A program made the position numbers and the translations under genes. Below the pieces are notes generated by a model. The model was not told the DNA's origin and ran no database searches. It saw only the letters and a list, made by a program, of their open reading frames with translations. DNA of 64,000 nucleotides. It comes from Terriglobus albidus. GTDB lineage: Bacteria > Acidobacteriota > Terriglobia > Terriglobales > Acidobacteriaceae. This document shows, one piece after another, positions 13,095-19,664 of this stretch; position 1 is the first letter of the stretch; the number at the start of each line of letters is the position of its first letter. Location: NCBI RefSeq assembly GCF_025685425.1, contig NZ_JAGTAS010000023.1, forward strand, positions 1 through 64,000, given 5' to 3'.

Positions 13095-13514
13095 GTGTCG
13101 GTTGAGATAGAAAAGCAGGCGAAACCGAACTGGCTGGTAACGCTGACCAGCTTTGGTTTTATTGTGCTGCAGAGTGCATGTACGGCTGTCATGGCAATCA
13201 GCGGGGTGCGCGTCGTAATCGGCCTCAGTGCTCTGGCCGCCGCAGCCGGAGTGCATCATCCAGCGACCGGCTTTCATCAGGATGCGATCCGCATCCCCAT
13301 GATGATCATCGCGGTCCTGGGTTCTCTGTTGAATCTCTACGTGATCTGGAGGATCAGATCGCTGCGTAACCGGCCGGCATCACAGTGGCGCATCACACCG
13401 CCGACGTCAAAGACACTACGGTCGGAGCGATTCCAGATCGCACTGGCCGTACTTACACTGGCGCTGGTGGCGGCCGAAGCTGCGACGCACCATATCATGC
13501 ATCACGTACCGTAG
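13095..13514 (+). CDS. Small multi-pass membrane protein of unknown function
   Basis: 139 residues, not recognised. Three hydrophobic stretches (about residues 15-35, 68-85 and 113-130) suggest three membrane spans. A His-containing segment lies between spans 1 and 2 (GVHHPATGFHQD), and the C-terminus is His-rich (THHIMHHVP). Clustered His residues could bind metal or heme, but no known motif is present. The start is GTG with a GGAGGG ribosome site 4 bp upstream. It lies 54 bp after the beta-lactamase-like gene and may share its transcript. Confidence 0.6.
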   Translation: MSVEIEKQAKPNWLVTLTSFGFIVLQSACTAVMAISGVRVVIGLSALAAAAGVHHPATGFHQDAIRIPMMIIAVLGSLLNLYVIWRIRSLRNRPASQWRITPPTSKTLRSERFQIALAVLTLALVAAEAATHHIMHHVP

Positions 13515-14088
13515 AAGCAGTTGCTAGTTGCTGCTTGCAAGTTGGACTGAGAAATTCAATGTAACCCATACACTGGGTGCCCCACCATTGCCCACCAATG
13601 GTGGGTAGGTCCGAGCGAAGCTCGAATCGGTGGGAGCCGAGGGCTTCAGCCCTCGGTCTATCGCTCAACATAGAAATGGGCTTTAGCCCTGGGCCTTTCT
13701 CCACTCTGTCAGGAAAAGGCCCAGGGCTTAAAGCCAGCCCTTTCAAGGTCTTTGCAAAATGAGAAAAATGCGCCGCCAGATTTACTGACTTGGTTCTTTT
13801 GCGCGTTTAGTTGAAGGTTTGGCAAGGGAAATCATTTTGAGTTAATGCTGAGTGATACATCGAAATGCATCTCTCGATCTTTTAATAGCGACGAAGACAA
13901 ATGAAAGGCGAACAGAAACATATCTTGGCCCCAAAGACCTTGAAAGGGCTGGGGCTTAAAGCCCCTTCATTTTTACGTCCTTATCAACGGGCTGAAGCCC
14001 GCTGCTCCCACCCGTCTCAGCCCGCACGGGTGGAGAAGCAGATTTCTCCGCTATCGCTACGGAATGACAAACAAAACGCCCGTCGTCC
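13515..14088. repeat. Long intergenic repeat block
   Basis: 574 bp without a credible gene. It contains a CCCACCATT / AATGGTGGG hairpin (near 13580-13605) and paired GGGCTTCAGCCC and GGGCTTTAGCCC-like modules (13625-13740 and again 13940-14030). Sisters of these lie near 20.3-20.46 and 53.5-53.66 kb. It also holds an AAATGACAAAC-type repeat near 14036-14077. The middle (13755-13900) is distinctly AT-rich with no long open frame. Confidence 0.65.
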
Positions 14089-14346
14089 TCACGAACCCTT
14101 CTTCTGCTTGAGCTCTTCTTCCAATCGCTGATGCAACCGCTCACTGAAGCCGACGGGTAGCTCAAAGACGCGGTCATCCGCCGTGAGCACAAGGATATTC
14201 CGCGTCGAATCCAGAATCGCCGAGCAGAGCTCGCAGTGTTCGAGATGCTTCTGCACGGTCACACGGATCTCCTCTGAGAGTGTTCCATCGAGGTAGTCGG
14301 AGATGTAGGTCCACACGTGTTTGCACTCTATGACCACGCGAACCAC
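14089..14346 (-). CDS. Zinc-finger anti-sigma factor of the bufferin-region ECF sigma
   Basis: An 85-residue soluble protein carrying the ZAS signature HxxxCxxC (KHLEHCELC, around residues 34-42) preceded by a Cys/His pair (ECKHVW). This matches small zf-HC2 anti-sigma factors that bind their ECF partner and release it on metal or redox stress. It has no membrane span, which favours a cytoplasmic signal. Its start overlaps the 3' end of the sigma gene by 19 bp, so it is translationally coupled to it and is the third gene of a DoxX-sigma-anti-sigma operon. Sigma-F-dependent buf/gig operons in Proteobacteria are instead controlled by a membrane anti-sigma (NrsF), so a zinc-finger type would be a different solution. 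Confidence 0.8.
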   Translation of the reverse strand: MVRVVIECKHVWTYISDYLDGTLSEEIRVTVQKHLEHCELCSAILDSTRNILVLTADDRVFELPVGFSERLHQRLEEELKQKKGS

Positions 14347-14951
14347 CTCCTTTTCGGCTTCGTCACCGACTTCAACTGAGGCGCCAGATACTTCTGCAGC
14401 ATCAGCCGCGCGCGGTGCAGCCTGACCTTCACCGCAGAGACGCTGATGTTCAGGGCCTCCGCAGTCTCATTGATATTAAGCTCCTCCACATCCCGCAGAA
14501 GAAATACTTCGCGATAGATCTCCGGCAGCGTCTCAACGGCTTTTCGCAGCAGATCGCGAATCTCTCCGCGCTCGACGGCCTCGGAAGGAATCTCTCGCCA
14601 GTCGCGCAGCAGCGCAGGCGAGACGGCGCCCTCTTCGTCAGGATCTTTGTCCAGGGATTCGGTACGGGCTGCCGTCTGCCGGCGAAGTCGTCCCCGGGCC
14701 TCATTCAGCGCGATGCTGATGAGCCAGGTGCTGAACTTGGCGTCGGCCCGAAAGGACGAGAGATGCCGAAAGGCCTTGAGGAAGGCTTCCTGTGCGACAT
14801 CTTCGGCATCGGTCTCGTTCTTCATATACGAGAGTGCGAGCAGATAGACCGGCCGCTCATAGGGGCGGATCAGATCATGGTAGAGCTGCGTCTCGCCCGC
14901 CAGAATGGCGGCGATGAGCTCGGCTTCGCCCTGCTGTTCCTGGAGCGTCAT
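14328..14951 (-). CDS. ECF RNA polymerase sigma factor
   Basis: A 207-residue extracytoplasmic-function sigma factor. Region 2 is clear (YMKNETDAEDVAQEAFLKAF, then FSTWLISIALNEARGRLRR). Region 4 ends with the HTH NINETAEALNISVSAVKVRL. The linker between regions is about 45 residues and acidic. I chose the ATG that starts 2 bp after the DoxX stop codon. An upstream in-frame start would overlap the DoxX coding end and add a His-rich, non-homologous stretch. It lies in an operon with DoxX before and the zinc-finger anti-sigma after. A promoter-like element upstream of this operon is repeated upstream of the precursor-peptide operon, which suggests autoregulation and control of the metallophore genes. 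Confidence 0.88.
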   Translation of the reverse strand: MTLQEQQGEAELIAAILAGETQLYHDLIRPYERPVYLLALSYMKNETDAEDVAQEAFLKAFRHLSSFRADAKFSTWLISIALNEARGRLRRQTAARTESLDKDPDEEGAVSPALLRDWREIPSEAVERGEIRDLLRKAVETLPEIYREVFLLRDVEELNINETAEALNISVSAVKVRLHRARLMLQKYLAPQLKSVTKPKRRWFAWS

Positions 14952-14953
14952 CG

Positions 14954-15415
14954 CTACTGCCTCGCAAACCTCCTGGCAATGATGGTGTCGATCGCGAACC
15001 ATCCGGGGCCGAAGATCAGCACCATGACGGAAGCGAAAAGAAACGTATACGGATCGGCGACGTAGAACTTGCCGGGATCGGAGAAGATGGCCAGCAGCGC
15101 TTCACGATCCGCAGTCAAGTATGCAACGAACATGTTGCCGGCGAGAAGCAGAGCAATCGGCTGCGACATCAAACCGAGCATCAGCAGAATGCCGCCGCCG
15201 AACTCCAGGGTGGAGACAAAATGAGCATTCAGGCCGGGAAATGGAATACCCAGGCTGGTAAAGAAGTCGGTAATGCGCGCAAGATGGTGGAGCTTGCCCC
15301 AGCCAGTCTGGGCGAACTGGAAGCCCCAGTAGAGCCTGACGGCCAGCAGCATGGGAGACTGCAGCCGTGAGAGCGGGTCGATGGTGCTGCGATAGAGGCG
15401 AAGTAGCGGTTCCAT
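14954..15415 (-). CDS. DoxX-family membrane protein
   Basis: A 153-residue four-helix membrane protein of the DoxX/DoxD-like family, recognised by the first span (MLLAVRLYWGFQFAQTGWGK) and the GGGILLMLGLMSQPIALLL segment. DoxX proteins are frequent companions of DUF692/DUF2063 bufferin genes, where the fourth gene (GigD/BufD) is of this family. They are thought to handle redox or quinone-linked electrons. The ATG at 15415 has an AGGA site 8 bp upstream. A much longer open frame runs upstream through a mobile-element copy and is not coding. Here the gene heads the operon with the sigma and anti-sigma genes and is separated from the peptide operon, an arrangement I have not seen described. Confidence 0.85.
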   Translation of the reverse strand: MEPLLRLYRSTIDPLSRLQSPMLLAVRLYWGFQFAQTGWGKLHHLARITDFFTSLGIPFPGLNAHFVSTLEFGGGILLMLGLMSQPIALLLAGNMFVAYLTADREALLAIFSDPGKFYVADPYTFLFASVMVLIFGPGWFAIDTIIARRFARQ

Positions 15416-15464
15416 GAACGAATCCTGTGGGGAGGCAGGTCGTACAGCCCGCCCTTTCCGCACC

Positions 15465-15494
15465 GTTAGAGATGCCGGGATGGAAAAAGTTACA
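15465..15494 (-). promoter_or_regulatory. Putative ECF promoter for the DoxX-sigma-anti-sigma operon
   Basis: Read on the minus strand this is TGTAAC, 16 bp, then TCTCTAAC, ending 49 bp before the DoxX start. The same two boxes with the same 16-bp spacing occur upstream of the precursor peptide gene (TGTAAC, 16 bp, TCTCCAAC). The -35 box resembles the AAC-containing -35 elements of ECF sigma factors. Confidence 0.7.
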
Positions 15495-15546
15495 GCAGGT
15501 GTGATTTGTAACGTTCCTGCCGCGGCGGGCATCAGATAGACGCCTG

Positions 15547-15658
15547 GAGCATTTTCCCTGTAGGTGTAGAGTGGGGTTTCCGCATCTATGGGCGTTTTCC
15601 GCAATGAAAACGCCGCTGCACTCCTCTCCCGGGCTACCCAGCAACAGGGAAAATGCTC
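15547..15658 (+). mobile_element. MITE-like element, copy 1
   Basis: A 112-bp element with terminal inverted repeats (GAGCATTTTCCCTGT at the left, ACAGGGAAAATGCTC at the right) and an internal perfect hairpin (GGCGTTTTC, CGCAAT, GAAAACGCC). It is flanked on both sides by TG. Two further copies at 28119-28229 and 39484-39593 are in the same orientation and flanked by TA. It ends 5 bp before the GGAGGTG ribosome site of the DUF1223 gene, so it probably forms part of that gene's leader. Confidence 0.85.
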
Positions 15659-15674
15659 TGATGGAGGTGTTGTT

Positions 15675-16457
15675 ATGTACGCTCGAATCTTTCTTGCCGC
15701 CGGCCTTTTCCTTACGCTGCGCGGCGATGCCGCAACCGTTCCACCCCAGAATCAAAAAGTTGCGGTGCTGGAGCTGTTTACCTCGGAAGGTTGCTCCAGC
15801 TGTCCTCCAGCGGATGTGCTGCTGCAGCAGGTCCATGGACGGACGACAACGGATGGTCAACTGGTGATCGGCATCAGCGAGCACGTGACCTACTGGAACA
15901 GCCTGGGATGGAAGGACCCGTACTCCGCGGAGACCTTTACCACCCGTCAGGAGAAGTATGCCGCGCGGCTGGCGGATGGACAGCCCTATACACCGCAGGC
16001 AGTGTTGAACGGCCGTGTCCAGTTGCTTGGCAGTGATGCCCATGCGCTGCAGGATGCGCTGCACCACGAAGCAGCAAAGAAGTCGGTAGACGTCACGGTC
16101 TCTTCGGTGAATGTGCAGCCGCAGGCGATCGATCTCCGGTTTGCAGTGCGGGGTCTGGCGCAGGGTTCGGAAAAGGCAAAACCGGTGGAGATCGTTGCGG
16201 TGATCACGGACGATACGGACCGCTCCAGCGTGCTTCGCGGCGAGAACTCCGGCCGTTCGCTCACACATGTCTCGGTGGCGCGATTGATGACGACGGTGGC
16301 GACGGTTCGCAATGACGGTGAGCAGAGCGTGCGGCTTGCGCTACCGTCGAGCCTGCATCTTGCTCATGGTGCACAGCACCTGGTGCTGCTGGCGCAGGCG
16401 CCGCATCAGGAAGAGATTCTTGGAGCCACGAGCGTGGCGCTGAATGTGACACAGTGA
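15675..16457 (+). CDS. DUF1223 family protein, thioredoxin-like, exported
   Basis: A 260-residue protein with a short signal peptide (YARIFLAAGLFLTLRGDA). It is recognised as DUF1223 by ELFTSEGCSSCPPAD (residues 31-45), which carries a CxxC in a thioredoxin-like position, and by the following GISEHVTYWNSLGWKDP and YTPQAVLNGR motifs. The biochemical role of the family is unknown; the CxxC suggests thiol or metal chemistry. I chose the ATG at 15675 because GGAGGTG lies 5 bp upstream. The open frame continues 29 codons upstream, but that part is encoded by the mobile-element copy. It sits between the divergent DoxX operon and the bufferin genes and may belong to the same metal/thiol response. 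Confidence 0.85.
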   Translation: MYARIFLAAGLFLTLRGDAATVPPQNQKVAVLELFTSEGCSSCPPADVLLQQVHGRTTTDGQLVIGISEHVTYWNSLGWKDPYSAETFTTRQEKYAARLADGQPYTPQAVLNGRVQLLGSDAHALQDALHHEAAKKSVDVTVSSVNVQPQAIDLRFAVRGLAQGSEKAKPVEIVAVITDDTDRSSVLRGENSGRSLTHVSVARLMTTVATVRNDGEQSVRLALPSSLHLAHGAQHLVLLAQAPHQEEILGATSVALNVTQ

Positions 16458-16475
16458 AAAATTTCTTCCGCAGCC

Positions 16476-16505
16476 TGTAACCAAATGCGGTGTGGAGTCT
16501 CCAAC
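16476..16505 (+). promoter_or_regulatory. Putative ECF promoter for the bufferin operon
   Basis: TGTAAC (16476-16481), a 16-bp spacer and TCTCCAAC (16498-16505), 88 bp before the precursor-peptide start. It matches the element before the DoxX-sigma-anti-sigma operon in 13 of 14 box positions and in spacing. The spacer sequences differ, which argues against simple duplication. Confidence 0.7.
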
Positions 16506-16593
16506 CAGCGGCAAGGGAAAGCTGACAAACATCCTGAGCCCAATCCCTCCGCGCAGGCTTGAGCCCGGCGCTTATCACGAAAGGAACTTCACG

Positions 16594-16884
16594 ATGAATT
16601 ACAAGGCAAGCAATCTCGCACTCGCAGCAGCCTTCGCCGGTCTTCTGAGCGGCACCACGGCTCGTTTGAACGCACAGCCCGTATCTGGCCACGAGGCGAG
16701 CGTGACCGGCGCAGCAATCGCAGCAGGCGTTGCGATGACGGCACAGGACGATCAGAAGCTGCCCAAGCACTCCTGCAAAGGCAAGAACGACTGTAAAGGC
16801 CAGGGCGGCGGCAAGAATGCCGGCAAGAACTCCTGCAAGGGCAAGGGCGACTGCGCCACCGACGGCTCCAAGCCCAAGAACTAA
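16594..16884 (+). CDS. bufA: Bufferin-type precursor peptide, four-Cys, exported
   Basis: A 96-residue peptide with a signal sequence (residues 1 to about 27, ending RLNA). A Ser/Ala/Asp mature N-terminus follows, and then a Lys/Gly-rich tail carrying exactly four Cys in two copies of SCKGKxDC (Cys 61/67 and 81/87) joined by a Gly/Lys/Asn linker. In bufferin pathways the DUF692/DUF2063 pair modifies Cys residues of such periplasmic peptides to thiooxazole-type groups that bind copper. The repeated CKGKxxC type resembles the group I believe is called BufA2, and differs from the DUF2282 (BufA1) group. An AAAGGAA ribosome site lies upstream. It is followed on the same strand by both modifying genes. 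Nothing here proves modification or the metal bound. Confidence 0.82.
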   Translation: MNYKASNLALAAAFAGLLSGTTARLNAQPVSGHEASVTGAAIAAGVAMTAQDDQKLPKHSCKGKNDCKGQGGGKNAGKNSCKGKGDCATDGSKPKN

Positions 16885-16954
16885 CCTCGGAAGCCGGTGA
16901 AGATTCGTGAGCCATACAACGAGCCTTCACCGGCGATCTCTTGATGGAGCTGGT

Positions 16955-17809
16955 ATGCCTGCAAATCGCTTCAATGGATATACAGACTACGGCGTCGGCA
17001 TAGGCCTGCGCGTGCCGCACTACGACCACATCCTCTCGCGCAAGCCCGTGGTCGACTGGTTCGAGATCATCTCAGAGAACTACATGGTCGATGGCGGCAG
17101 GCCGCTGCGTATTCTCGATCAGATTCTCGATCAGTACCGTGTGGTGCAGCATGGTGTTTCGATGTACTTCGGTAGTGCACAGCCACCGAACCGCGATCAT
17201 CTGCGGCGTTTGAAGGACCTGGTGCGGCGCACAGGAACGCCGTGGCTGTCGGATCATCTGTGCTGGGGAAGCGTCGACGGTCGCTATACCCATGACCTGC
17301 TGCCGCTGCCTTATACGTGGGAGGCAGTGCGAACCACGGCGGAACGCATCCGCCAGGTGCAGGATTTCCTCGAGATTCCCGTCGCGGTAGAGAACGTCAG
17401 TAGCTATGCCGAGTTTCATGAGTCACAGATGACCGAGTGGGAGTTCCTGAATGAGGTGGTCCATGCCGCGGACTGCGGCATCCTGCTCGACGTGAACAAT
17501 ATCTACGTCTCCTCGCGGAACCACGAGTTCGATCCGATGGAGTACGTGAACAGTATTCCGGCGGATCGCGTGGCACAGATTCACATTGCCGGCCACTCGC
17601 AGTTTGAGCGCTACACGCTCGACACCCATGACCATCCGGTGCTTGACCCGGTATGGAGCCTCTATGCACGCGCCATTGAGCGCTGCGGTCCGACGGCGAC
17701 GCTGCTCGAGTGGGATGACAATATTCCGACCTTCGATGAAGTGCATGCGGAGGCGCTGAAGGCGAACCGTTTTCTACAGCCCGCAAAGGTCGAGGAGGCG
17801 GTCGCATGA
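16955..17809 (+). CDS. bufB: DUF692 (MbnB/BufB-like) multinuclear iron peptide-modifying oxygenase
   Basis: 284 residues forming the TIM-barrel DUF692 domain. Family enzymes use a di- or tri-iron centre and O2 to rewrite Cys residues in a precursor peptide. Ligand-type motifs are all present: HGVSM (His66), SDHLCW (Asp100-His101), VENVSSY (Glu146), LLDVNN (Asp179, Asn181), HIAGH (His210, His214), DTHDHP (Asp223, His225) and LEWDDN (Glu252). I prefer the ATG with GGAG 5 bp upstream. A GTG at 16907 with a weak site would add 16 residues. It lies 70 bp after the four-Cys peptide, and its stop overlaps the start of the DUF2063 gene (ATGA), so the enzyme and partner are coupled. Confidence 0.92.
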   Translation: MPANRFNGYTDYGVGIGLRVPHYDHILSRKPVVDWFEIISENYMVDGGRPLRILDQILDQYRVVQHGVSMYFGSAQPPNRDHLRRLKDLVRRTGTPWLSDHLCWGSVDGRYTHDLLPLPYTWEAVRTTAERIRQVQDFLEIPVAVENVSSYAEFHESQMTEWEFLNEVVHAADCGILLDVNNIYVSSRNHEFDPMEYVNSIPADRVAQIHIAGHSQFERYTLDTHDHPVLDPVWSLYARAIERCGPTATLLEWDDNIPTFDEVHAEALKANRFLQPAKVEEAVA

Positions 17810-18663
17810 CCTTACTGGAGCTGCAGCGCCGCATGGAGCAGGACGTCCGTCGCCCGTTGACCGCAGAGCTTACGATGCAGCTGCGGACCTCAGAAGGCGA
17901 GTCGATGGAGGAGATCGCTGCGACATACATCCGCGCGAACAGTGAACTCACTTCATTTGAGCGGCTGGAGATCTACAATCGCCAGTACTGGCTTCGTGTG
18001 ATCGGCGCTGTTTCGGAGGACTACCCTGCGCTGCAGGCATTGGTGGGCGCCGAGTCCTTCGATGCATTGGTATTGGAATATTTGAAACAGCGCCCTTCCA
18101 GCTCGTGGACCCTGCGGGATCTGAGCGCGGATCTGCCACAGTTCCTGAAGCGCTATCCGGAGTTTGCTGGTGAGCAGTATCAACTGGCTGTAGATATCAC
18201 GCGGCTGGAATGGGTCTATGTCGAAGCCTTCGATGGCGCGCAGATTGAGCCGCTCGCCTCAGATGAGTTAGCCCGGCTTGGGCCAGAGTCGGCGCTGGCG
18301 CTCCAGCCGCATCTGCGGCTGCTTGCTGTGGACTATCCCGTGGATGAATTTGTGCTCGCCGTGAAGAAGCTGGAACGGAAAGCCGTAACCAGCGGAGCAG
18401 CGCAACTGCGACAGACAAGTATTACGAGCACACTGCCTGAGATGACTCCAGAACAGCGCTATCTGGCCGTGCATCGGTATGACGATGTGGTGTACTACCG
18501 CACGCTCGAAGAAGGTGAGTTCCGTTTGCTGGAGGCGCTCCGACAGGGAAAGACGATCGCTGAAGCCGTGGACATTCTTGCCGGAGCAGAACAGCTAACC
18601 ACTGTGCAGCAAACCTTCGCCCTGGCTGCGGAACTTGGCTGGTTCTGCCACCCAACACTTTAG
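17806..18663 (+). CDS. bufC: DUF2063 (MbnC/BufC-like) partner protein
   Basis: A 285-residue partner of the DUF692 enzyme. The N-terminal DUF2063 domain is recognised by RLEIYNRQYWLRVIGAVSEDYPAL (about 53-76, quoted in part) and by DLPQFLKRYPEF and DITRLEWVYVEAFD further on. The C-terminal 80 residues (after MTPEQRYLAVHR) look like a winged-helix/PqqD-like RRE that would recruit the peptide leader. In methanobactin and bufferin systems the two proteins form a heterodimer that is the active modifying unit. The start overlaps the upstream stop. No terminator is obvious, and an AT-richer gene of different character follows 35 bp later. Confidence 0.88.
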   Translation: MTLLELQRRMEQDVRRPLTAELTMQLRTSEGESMEEIAATYIRANSELTSFERLEIYNRQYWLRVIGAVSEDYPALQALVGAESFDALVLEYLKQRPSSSWTLRDLSADLPQFLKRYPEFAGEQYQLAVDITRLEWVYVEAFDGAQIEPLASDELARLGPESALALQPHLRLLAVDYPVDEFVLAVKKLERKAVTSGAAQLRQTSITSTLPEMTPEQRYLAVHRYDDVVYYRTLEEGEFRLLEALRQGKTIAEAVDILAGAEQLTTVQQTFALAAELGWFCHPTL

Positions 18664-18698
18664 CAAGTGCCATGCAGGATTATGGATAATGGACATGC

Positions 18699-19664
18699 AT
18701 GTTTGATTGGAAGGTTGATGACCGACTTATCCGTATTTATGAACTCGAATCTCGAAACGAAGACCACCGCGAGATCAGCGGAGTTAAGTTCTGTTTAGGG
18801 GATTGGTGGGCATTCGGCTCTAGGGTCGTCTTACAGTCAAAGGATGGGATGCGTTGGGTAGATCTAAGCGACGAGTTTAACTCTGCCGAAAGATTCGCAG
18901 TGAAAGCATTTGTGGGGTTGGAGAACGAGGCGTTCGTGTTTTCGCAGAGCAGGAGCGGTTTATCATGCCGTTCCCTATATTGTTTTCCGGAGCGTGGATT
19001 GCAGCGTTGGAGAACCCTCCCGTCTGTCCCTACATCTTCAGCGTTTGTCATTGCCGCGTGCACTCATGAGCAAGTAATAGTTTGCGTCGACGACGGAAAA
19101 GAAAGTCGACTAATGCGGCTGCGTGGAAATCGCACGGAATGGGAGCAACTCCCCGTTTCCTTCCCTGGCGTCGGTTCGTATTTAGAGTTGGCGGAATCGG
19201 GTGAAGGTATTTGCGCGCTATGGAGACCACAGCGGACAACAGGATTTCGCGAATCTTCCGGGATTTATGGTACTCGCGACGGTGGGACTACATGGGACAA
19301 GATACAAGAGGTAGATACGACGCTCCTGGGTGGGGCATCTAGTTTCGGGCGGCCAACTCTTCTGGGCGGGTCAAATGGCTATATCGCCGAGGGGAATGTA
19401 GATGGATTTACAGCCTTTTCCTTGTCAACCCCCGATGAAGTGGCAGCCGTAGCATGCGATCAATTCCAGCAAGCGTTTGTTCTTGAATCGGACGATGAAA
19501 TACCAGTTCAAACGCTCAGATGGAGAGATGCTTCTTCAAGCTGGAGAAGCTTCAATCTCAGCTTGGCGGACCGGATCGTCGATATAGAGTTCGTCGGGTT
19601 TGGTGTGGTTTTGTTGGGGACCAGGAAGTCACTCTATATTTATAGCGTTGAGTTGCTTCAATAA
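18699..19664 (+). CDS. Cytoplasmic beta-propeller-like protein of unknown function, likely acquired
   Basis: 321 residues, not recognised at family level. There is no signal peptide or membrane span. Repeated beta-strand blocks with a sialidase-type Asp-box ([17 protein letters not shown], about residues 186-202) and several W-rich strands point to a BNR/WD-type propeller. The base composition is visibly AT-richer than the flanking genes, with many TTT, AAA and TAT codons, which suggests recent transfer. No clear ribosome site precedes the ATG. It directly follows the bufferin operon on the same strand but may be unrelated. Effector-immunity or scaffold roles are possible, and I have no evidence for either. 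Confidence 0.6.

Follow-up and report, generated by a model that had tools for sequence, protein, structure and literature searches.

The first 64,000 nucleotides of contig NZ_JAGTAS010000023.1 of Terriglobus albidus (the window), part of a 6.1-Mb genome, contain a bufferin-type gene cluster, bufABC, adjoined by genes for a DoxX-family protein, an extracytoplasmic function (ECF) sigma factor, and a small zf-HC2 zinc-finger protein. Taken as a whole, the locus is best explained as a self-contained, ECF-run stress regulon that would produce a copper-binding bufferin, a reading to which we assign a probability of about 0.72. The bufferin character of the cluster is well supported; modification of the peptide and its binding of copper are predicted from relatives. 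Computation establishes the gene identities, the co-conservation of the genes, the conservation of the active-site and zinc-site residues, and the occurrence of promoter-like boxes associated with one clade of sigma factors. The seven genes that an initial annotation had placed within 4.6 kb (a four-Cys peptide, DUF692, DUF2063, DoxX, ECF sigma, zf-HC2, and a CxxC protein of family DUF1223) were all found at approximately the positions it gave. Pfam gathering cut-offs were used for family calls and curated NCBIfam cut-offs for BufB, BufA2, HvfX, HvfC, and RsrA; every listed gene except the peptide (BufA), which no Pfam family claimed, exceeded its Pfam cut-off. The unit reaches past the left edge of that annotation and takes in a membrane protein at 13095 to 13514, which, like the shared box and the Buf2 origin of the peptide, had not been noted.

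The view that this is a bufferin-type cluster with an adjacent sigma factor and a zinc-finger partner is supported. BufB exceeded the NCBIfam cut-off for bufferin maturases (NF050167, 357.2 bits versus 310). By spacing, all nine iron ligands of TglH (His71, His107, Glu151, Asp184, Asn187, His216, Asp229, His231, and Glu258; PMC10880893) have counterparts in BufB (H66, H101, E146, D179, N182, H210, D223, H225, and E252; 9/9), and each of these positions is invariant in 84/84 BufB sequences. D254, which matches the proposed base FonB-Asp249, is likewise invariant (84/84), and the residue that follows it, in the register of an alignment to 3bww, is Asp in 80 of 84; Asp at this site is typical of the Cys-Lys (BufA2) enzymes, and Phe of the EGKCG group (PMC13097082). 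Membership of BufB in the bufferin maturases of the multinuclear nonheme iron-dependent oxidative enzyme (MNIO) family is thus well supported, and oxidation of Cys in its precursor is predicted. The DUF2063 protein BufC (66 bits over a cut-off of 27.2) yielded a confident AlphaFold2 model (predicted local distance difference test [pLDDT], 91.5) whose best fold match in the Protein Data Bank (PDB) was 8hi7_A, from the TglHI holoenzyme (Foldseek probability, 1.00; template modeling [TM] score, 0.60; root mean square deviation, 7.9). We read chain A of 8hi7 as the partner TglI, given that in the sister entry, 8hci, DUF692 is chain D. BufC scored below the HvfC equivalog cut-off (45 of 142 bits), and a sequence search of solved structures with a BufC profile returned no match; on the strength of its model, BufC would be an MNIO partner of PME-type 1.

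The zf-HC2 protein carries the motif C8-X25-H34-X3-C38-X2-C41, invariant in 32/32 sequences, which fits the published definition of the zinc-binding anti-sigma (ZAS) motif (C/H-X23-26-H-X3-C-X2-C; PMC7907618), and it has no hydrophobic segment. It did not reach the RsrA equivalog cut-off (TIGR03988, 32.3 of 62.5 bits), and its structure model, with a mean pLDDT of 52, was not used. Inhibition of the cognate sigma factor has been demonstrated for two relatives, by copurification and a reporter assay for HrsE (PMC7907618) and genetically for MseR (PMC2893595); by analogy, the zf-HC2 protein is predicted to inhibit the ECF sigma factor as an anti-sigma factor.

Gene neighborhoods were compared across 80 named loci, the best of 569 confirmed BufB loci, so that the numbers below apply to close relatives of BufB in Acidobacteriota and Verrucomicrobiota. 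An ECF gene paired with a zf-HC2 gene (counted at 100 bits or more) was found near BufB in 31 of the 80. In the window the ZAS gene directly follows the ECF gene and overlaps it; the pair is present in all 31 loci counted, including L067, whose contig starts inside the sigma gene. Ten gene orders occur. The commonest is bufABC-doxX-ecf-zas in one direction (10 loci), followed by ecf-zas-bufABC-doxX (7), the divergent arrangement with DUF1223 as in the window (4), a divergent arrangement without DUF1223 (3), and six rarer orders, including one, in L067, that the end of the contig truncates. Because 31 loci show ten orders, the linkage between the sigma/ZAS pair and bufABC survives rearrangement, and company kept despite shuffled order argues for function. 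The initial annotation had proposed a survey of relatives and named lack of co-conservation as one of the outcomes that would count against it; the survey shows that the ECF sigma factor, the 85-amino-acid soluble ZAS protein, and BufABC are co-conserved. The separate DoxX-led operon that it had offered as new is one arrangement among the ten. DoxX itself scored under the NCBIfam HvfX cut-off (48.8 of 80 bits).

In a FastTree phylogeny of ECF proteins, built without short matches, duplicate sequences, or translations containing internal stops, the buf-linked sigma factors form one clade (support, 0.93), apart from those of L022 and L047, which fall in a sister group. In 61 related genomes, that of the window included, a member of this ECF clade was present in 7 of the 9 that have BufB over the cut-off and in 3 of the remaining 52 (Fisher P = 9e-6; related sequences inflate this and every other P value reported here). 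In Edaphobacter aggregans DSM 19364 (G099; loci L023, L182, L183, and L184), four sequences match the buf-type sigma factor at 60% identity or more; one of them has an internal stop, and two adjoin bufABC sets.

The strongest co-occurrence in the study is that of the ECF clade with the membrane protein encoded at 13095 to 13514. It is present in 30 of the 31 named ECF+ZAS loci (L040 gave no match), tail to tail with zf-HC2 in 27, and in only 2 of the 49 others, namely, L082, whose sigma gene lies elsewhere in the genome, and L092, at a contig edge. Across the 61 genomes it occurs in exactly the 10 that have the ECF clade and in 0 of the remaining 51 (Fisher P = 1e-11); the 10 include all three ECF-clade genomes that gave no BufB, in one of which (G034) it lies on another contig. 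The protein has four hydrophobic segments, and S27, C29, H61, R66, P68, L90, R91, W98, R99, and Q114 are conserved in 44/44 sequences and E128 and H132 in 43/44. Pfam and NCBIfam searches gave weak scatter only (CopD in 4/35 and Fumarate_red_C in 3/35; best E values, 0.001 to 0.006). Extra sigma copies at L182 and L183, two of three E. aggregans loci fetched, have no membrane protein gene nearby. The protein belongs to the sigma/ZAS module; as a guess at its role, it is our best candidate for carrying an envelope signal to the soluble anti-sigma factor. A more specific version, which we put forward tentatively and consider rather doubtful, is a three-part switch in which the membrane protein would sense copper or redox state through Cys29, His61, and the near-invariant His132 and control the ZAS protein. 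If true, it would place an integral membrane sensor upstream of a separate cytosolic ZAS protein in ECF signaling, switching on bufferin production.

A predicted, promoter-like sigma box is shared by doxX-ecf-zas, bufABC, and, in variant form, DUF1223. In the window, TGTAAC-N15-RTCTC precedes both doxX and bufA, and comparison with relatives extends this to a 30-base box, TGTAACC-N17-TCNAAC. The box lies before doxX in 18/18 distinct loci in which doxX leads ecf-zas, the window included (22 rows, four of which repeat a genome). For bufA a looser pattern was used ([TC]GTAAC[CT]-N15-19-TC within 300 bases), which was found in 24/31 loci with a local sigma gene, in 5/5 usable loci with the sigma gene elsewhere, and in 7/32 loci without a clade member; the contrast of 29/36 with the ECF clade versus 7/32 without it (Fisher P = 2e-6) compares with 24 hits in 1,540 dinucleotide-shuffled upstream sequences. 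Omitted from this comparison were two sister-clade loci (both box positive), one locus lacking upstream sequence, and nine untested loci (1 of 7 usable was box positive). Six of the seven local misses carry TGTTACC-N17-TC(T/A)AAC in the same register, and the seventh, L043, has TGTGACC; these variants were found after the test and were not counted in it. The TGTTACC change falls in the −35 element, and the sigma factors of the loci concerned group together with support of 1.0, in what we interpret from the sequences as a natural case of promoter-sigma coevolution. The TGTTACC group is Edaphobacter-type (L023, L028, L029, L030, L032, and L035), keeps its −10 element, and has its own branch of the sigma tree. 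L022 and L047 have a sister-clade ECF + zf-HC2 pair, yet in both a box-like site precedes bufA, as though control had passed to a related sigma factor. No sigma-70-type promoter was matched in the window from 13400 to 18800 (shuffled sequences: mean, 1.9; standard deviation, 1.3), which agrees with, but does not prove, control by an alternative sigma factor.

The initial annotation had treated the DUF1223 gene as embedded in the cluster. The gene does lie between the two operons, but it has a box of its own that is kept when the gene is located elsewhere. Its product contains CSSC and has a solved relative, 2axo (2.5e-24), classed as a thioredoxin fold (PMC3091736). The pattern TGTAAC-N17-20-TC precedes DUF1223 in 9/9 related genomes with both the ECF clade and a DUF1223 protein over the cut-off, four of which (G000, G002, G012, and G015) are close relatives with near-identical sequence; in another, G017, the boxed gene is about 830 kb from the sigma gene on the same contig. 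Without the ECF clade, the box precedes 1 of 11 alignable over-cut-off copies (G036), with a TGTGAC variant in G023; one further over-cut-off copy (G024, C17) was not alignable, and a second DUF1223 copy in G034 has no box. DUF1223 is near the sigma gene in only 5/31 named ECF+ZAS loci. Because the box is kept even when the gene sits elsewhere, DUF1223 is probably a regulon member rather than an insert in the cluster.

These observations fit the following scheme, in which anti-sigma action, Cys modification, copper binding, and export are proposed from relatives, and the inducing signal and the part played by the membrane protein are guesses. At rest, the soluble zinc-finger protein (14089 to 14346) would keep the ECF sigma factor inactive. 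Metal or thiol-oxidizing stress would upset its Cys/His zinc site and free the sigma factor, possibly with the membrane protein relaying an envelope signal. The freed sigma factor would bind TGTAACC-N17-TCNAAC boxes before doxX-ecf-zas, giving positive feedback, and before DUF1223 and bufABC. BufB and BufC would then oxidize Cys residues of BufA in the cytosol, and the peptide would be exported through Sec to bind copper in the periplasm, while DoxX and DUF1223 would deal with thiol and redox damage in the envelope.

Besides the inflated P values, several results weigh against this scheme. Three ECF-clade genomes (G005, G011, and G034) gave no BufB, so the buf-type sigma factor has other jobs. 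The box occurs before bufA in the 7/32 loci without the ECF clade, several of which are metagenome-assembled genome (MAG) contigs and may be incomplete. The box pattern was first noticed in the window itself, and genome-wide it is no commoner than its reversed control: in six genomes the strict form TGTAACYN{17,18}TCWRAY gave 17 matches, 10 of them in this locus, versus 16 for the control, whose places were not listed, and in the genome of the window the first form, TGTAACN{14,16}RTCTC, gave 8 matches versus 14 reversed. Since these counts do not exceed the controls, single matches outside the locus mean little, and a large genome-wide regulon called from the box alone is ruled out. Meningococcal sigmaE was unresponsive to H2O2, to diamide, and to singlet oxygen (PMC2893595), and redox sensing by the ZAS site should therefore not be assumed. 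Two candidate targets are patchy: of five genomes with both a close msrB and the ECF clade, two have a box before msrB (it is absent from G007, G061, and G099), and a cytochrome b561 box is found in 2/4 (absent from G007 and G061). To these points are added two shortfalls of BufA, taken up below.

The patchy targets bear on the alternative that survives best, namely, that oxidative or reactive-chlorine stress, and not copper, is what the regulon responds to, with thiol and methionine repair or buffering as its task and metal binding secondary. In the genome of the window and in G002, a box lies 56 to 59 bases before msrB, which is followed by msrA (Pfam SelR and PMSR). In the BufB-less genomes G005 and G011, boxes precede ecf-zas, a run of genes for cytochrome b561, a molybdopterin oxidoreductase, and a methyltransferase, and an exported-looking AhpC/TSA redoxin; these genomes (loci L165 and L166) keep the sigma factor, the ZAS protein, the membrane protein, and DUF1223. 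Haemophilus influenzae RpoE2 is responsive to HOCl and has msrAB and a DoxX cluster under its control (PMC7907618). On the other side, msrB and redoxin-type boxes are lineage specific and BufABC is the commoner target, and Caulobacter bufferins protect against copper (PMC12452194). As fixed regulon members, msrB and the b561/molybdopterin genes were only partly upheld, and their boxes are lineage specific at best. We regard an oxidative-stress regulon as possible, and a copper-directed one as the better account.

BufA has a Lys and then a hydrophobic segment at residues 8 to 22 (Kyte-Doolittle), on which its predicted export rests, and it carries CK motifs; the MNIO and DUF2063 genes follow, as in the Buf2 gene order, and the DUF2282 (Buf1) profile gave no Pfam match at E values up to 0.1. 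Precursors in the 80 named loci have six Cys in 55, four in 14, and another number in 9 (some of these cut or frameshifted); in 2, none was found. The six-Cys precursor consists of two near-repeats, CKGKNDCKGQGGC...CKGKNSCKGKGGC, and in the window peptide Cys three and four are missing. On the BufB tree, four-Cys peptides characterize one clade (the window, L016 to L021, L024 to L026, L034, and L043; support, 0.86). Because such peptides appear again in L022/L037 and in L047 (deep supports in this tree are low), loss of the same central Cys pair seems to have happened on more than one occasion. The shortfalls are that BufA scored below the curated BufA2 cut-off (NF050166, 27.5 of 60 bits) and has four Cys in place of the six or twelve conserved in BufA2. 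The six six-Cys relatives tried also fell short (37.9 to 45.1 bits), so that this branch lies outside the reach of the cut-off. Since both the Cys number and the cut-off were missed, we place BufA in the Buf2 lineage as a four-Cys derivative and do not call it a certified BufA2. Duplicated precursors also occur, as a 12-Cys BufA in L004 (G057) and as two three-Cys units in L064.

The loss of two of six Cys and the low BufA2 score would also be expected of a decayed bufferin that no longer undergoes modification or binds copper. We think this unlikely: a supported clade retains the four-Cys peptide together with an intact enzyme, partner, and box; the form turns up again in L022/L037 and L047; the Cys that remain do not vary among the four-Cys peptides compared; and Buf1 also works with four Cys (PMC12452194). 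Least probable of all is that the sigma/ZAS module is a neighbor with targets of its own, bufABC being served by other promoters and the linkage merely historical: the three BufB-less ECF-clade genomes, the 32 of 40 genomes that gave no clade member despite bufABC (loci drawn from the 80 named, 2 of the 40 chosen as positive), and the lack of any sigma gene reported with Buf2 clusters (PMC12452194) would suit it, but the box is associated with the sigma clade, occurs in all five usable bufA loci whose sigma gene sits elsewhere, and is kept by unlinked DUF1223.

Comparison with described systems shows what the sigma-run Buf2-type reading adds. Buf2 clusters (BufA2B2C2, Cys-Lys captophorin) share with the window a precursor that carries CKG motifs and whose N-terminal segment is hydrophobic, an MNIO with Asp at the Cys-Lys site, a DUF2063 partner, and DoxX. 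They differ in having six or twelve Cys where the window peptide has four and, according to a 2025 survey (PMC12452194), in lacking sigma linkage, whereas the window cluster is linked to ECF sigma + ZAS; that survey places sigma and NrsF genes in Buf1, not Buf2, clusters. The Buf2 origin of the peptide, which the initial annotation missed, makes the sigma linkage more unusual. Caulobacter sigmaF-NrsF is likewise an ECF sigma factor over MNIO operons with DoxX, and its −35 element is GTAACC (PMC3511200); its regulon includes a YedY-like oxidoreductase, and an Oxidored_molyb gene also stands behind a box in G005 and G011. It differs in that NrsF is a six-helix DUF1109 protein where the window has a soluble zinc finger, in its Buf1 (DUF2282) precursors, and in its box, GTAACC-N16-CGAA versus GTAACC-N17-TCNAAC in window-type loci (PMC3511200).

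The small cytosolic zinc-finger anti-sigma factor, put forward in the initial annotation as new, already has precedents in DoxX-linked clusters, Neisseria MseR (PMC2893595) and H. influenzae HrsE (PMC7907618). The Neisseria sigmaE-MseR operon NMB2140-2145 resembles the window in its DoxX-like gene, ECF sigma factor, and ZAS anti-sigma factor; it is one operon that includes three hypothetical genes, and msrA/msrB are targeted at a distance (PMC2893595). In the gonococcus the precursor, gonophorin, belongs to the EGKCG type (PMC13097082), and neither DUF1223 nor an extra membrane partner is described in the portions of PMC2893595 available. H. influenzae RpoE2-HrsE also pairs an ECF sigma factor with a ZAS anti-sigma factor (HrsE, 67 amino acids) and controls msrAB and a DoxX/COG3220 (DUF692)/DUF2063 cluster (PMC7907618), but that cluster is not beside the sigma gene and has an EGKCG/oxazolin precursor. 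DUF692 clusters with a six-Cys precursor have been reported from soil (PMC8692599); the word "sigma" does not occur in the main text of that paper, and the main text of PMC12452194 has no word starting with Acidobacter, Verrucomicrob, or DUF1223. Among the papers listed by a literature search, with most subscription journals beyond its reach, none dealt with an acidobacterial bufferin cluster under sigma control.

Measured against the portions of these sources available, what is new is the sigma/ZAS pair with Buf2-type clusters, the lost central Cys pair, and the unannotated four-helix membrane protein; the enzyme chemistry and the type of switch are already known, and the pairing, the phylum, and one component are new. 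Bufferins are a recently recognized means of copper handling, and studies of how such clusters are controlled have dealt with a few Pseudomonadota. The window comes from a distant phylum of soil bacteria in which Buf2-type clusters are joined to an ECF sigma factor and a soluble zinc finger, with a predicted box that makes the regulon testable.

TABLE 1 Features of the predicted regulon locus, in window coordinates
Feature	Position	Strand	Remarks
Four-helix membrane protein, 139 aa, no known family	13095..13514	+	Candidate membrane partner of sigma/ZAS pair; co-occurrence with ECF clade
zf-HC2/ZAS protein, 85 aa, soluble, predicted anti-sigma factor	14089..14346	-	PF13490, 42.2 bits vs cut-off of 22.2
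ECF sigma factor	14328..14951	-	Sigma70_r2 and r4_2 over Pfam cut-offs; open reading frame open to 15002
DoxX-family membrane protein, leads minus-strand unit	14954..15415	-	PF07681, 63 bits vs 23.6
Promoter-like box before doxX, TGTAAC-N18-TCTAAC, 30 bases	15465..15494	-	Kept in 18/18 distinct doxX-led loci
Promoter-like box before DUF1223, TGTAAC-N19-TCAGA	15507..15536	+	9/9 genomes with ECF clade and DUF1223
Dispersed palindromic repeat copy, between DUF1223 box and DUF1223 gene	15547..15658	.	Not part of the mechanism
DUF1223 protein, thioredoxin-fold family, CSSC	15675..16457	+	PF06764, 182 bits vs 30.7
Promoter-like box before bufA, TGTAACC-N17-TCCAAC	16476..16505	+	Association with ECF clade in relatives
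BufA precursor peptide, 96 aa, four Cys (CX5CX13CX4C)	16594..16884	+	Six-Cys Buf2-derived; NF050166, 27.5 bits of 60
BufB, MNIO (DUF692) enzyme	16955..17809	+	NF050167, 357 bits of 310; MbnB_TglH_ChrH, 366 vs 25
BufC, DUF2063 partner protein	17806..18663	+	PF09836, 66 bits vs 27.2; AlphaFold2 pLDDT, 91.5

Several gene starts were revised or confirmed. The ECF gene likely starts at the ATG at 14951, 2 nucleotides past the doxX stop, rather than at 15002, and the zf-HC2 gene overlaps the end of ecf by 19 nucleotides; because the spacing is this tight, a single doxX-ecf-zf-HC2 transcript is suggested. For BufB the ATG at 16955 is the most likely start, and for DoxX the ATG at 15415, which agrees with the Pfam match and sits 50 bases inside the box; a TTG start at 15604 was ruled out. 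The closest named BufB, 99% identical and among the best 80 loci, is from the MAG "Acidobacteriaceae bacterium Bin6.3."

An inverted repeat between doxX and DUF1223, considered as an operator, was ruled out, since it is a copy of a palindrome dispersed genome-wide. This repeat of about 115 bp, seen in the window at 15545 to 15665, has at least 57 matches in the genome of the window, mostly 90 to 97% identical and several in tandem (40 of 431 candidates scored); it is also found upstream of msrB (L204) and is apparently absent before DUF1223 in G002. It looks like a mobile element of the repetitive extragenic palindrome (REP) or miniature inverted-repeat transposable element (MITE) type. Short extragenic palindromes of the GGGCTT(T/A)AAGCCC type lie at 13677 to 13740 and 13940 to 14000, one of which fits a terminator scan at 13951.

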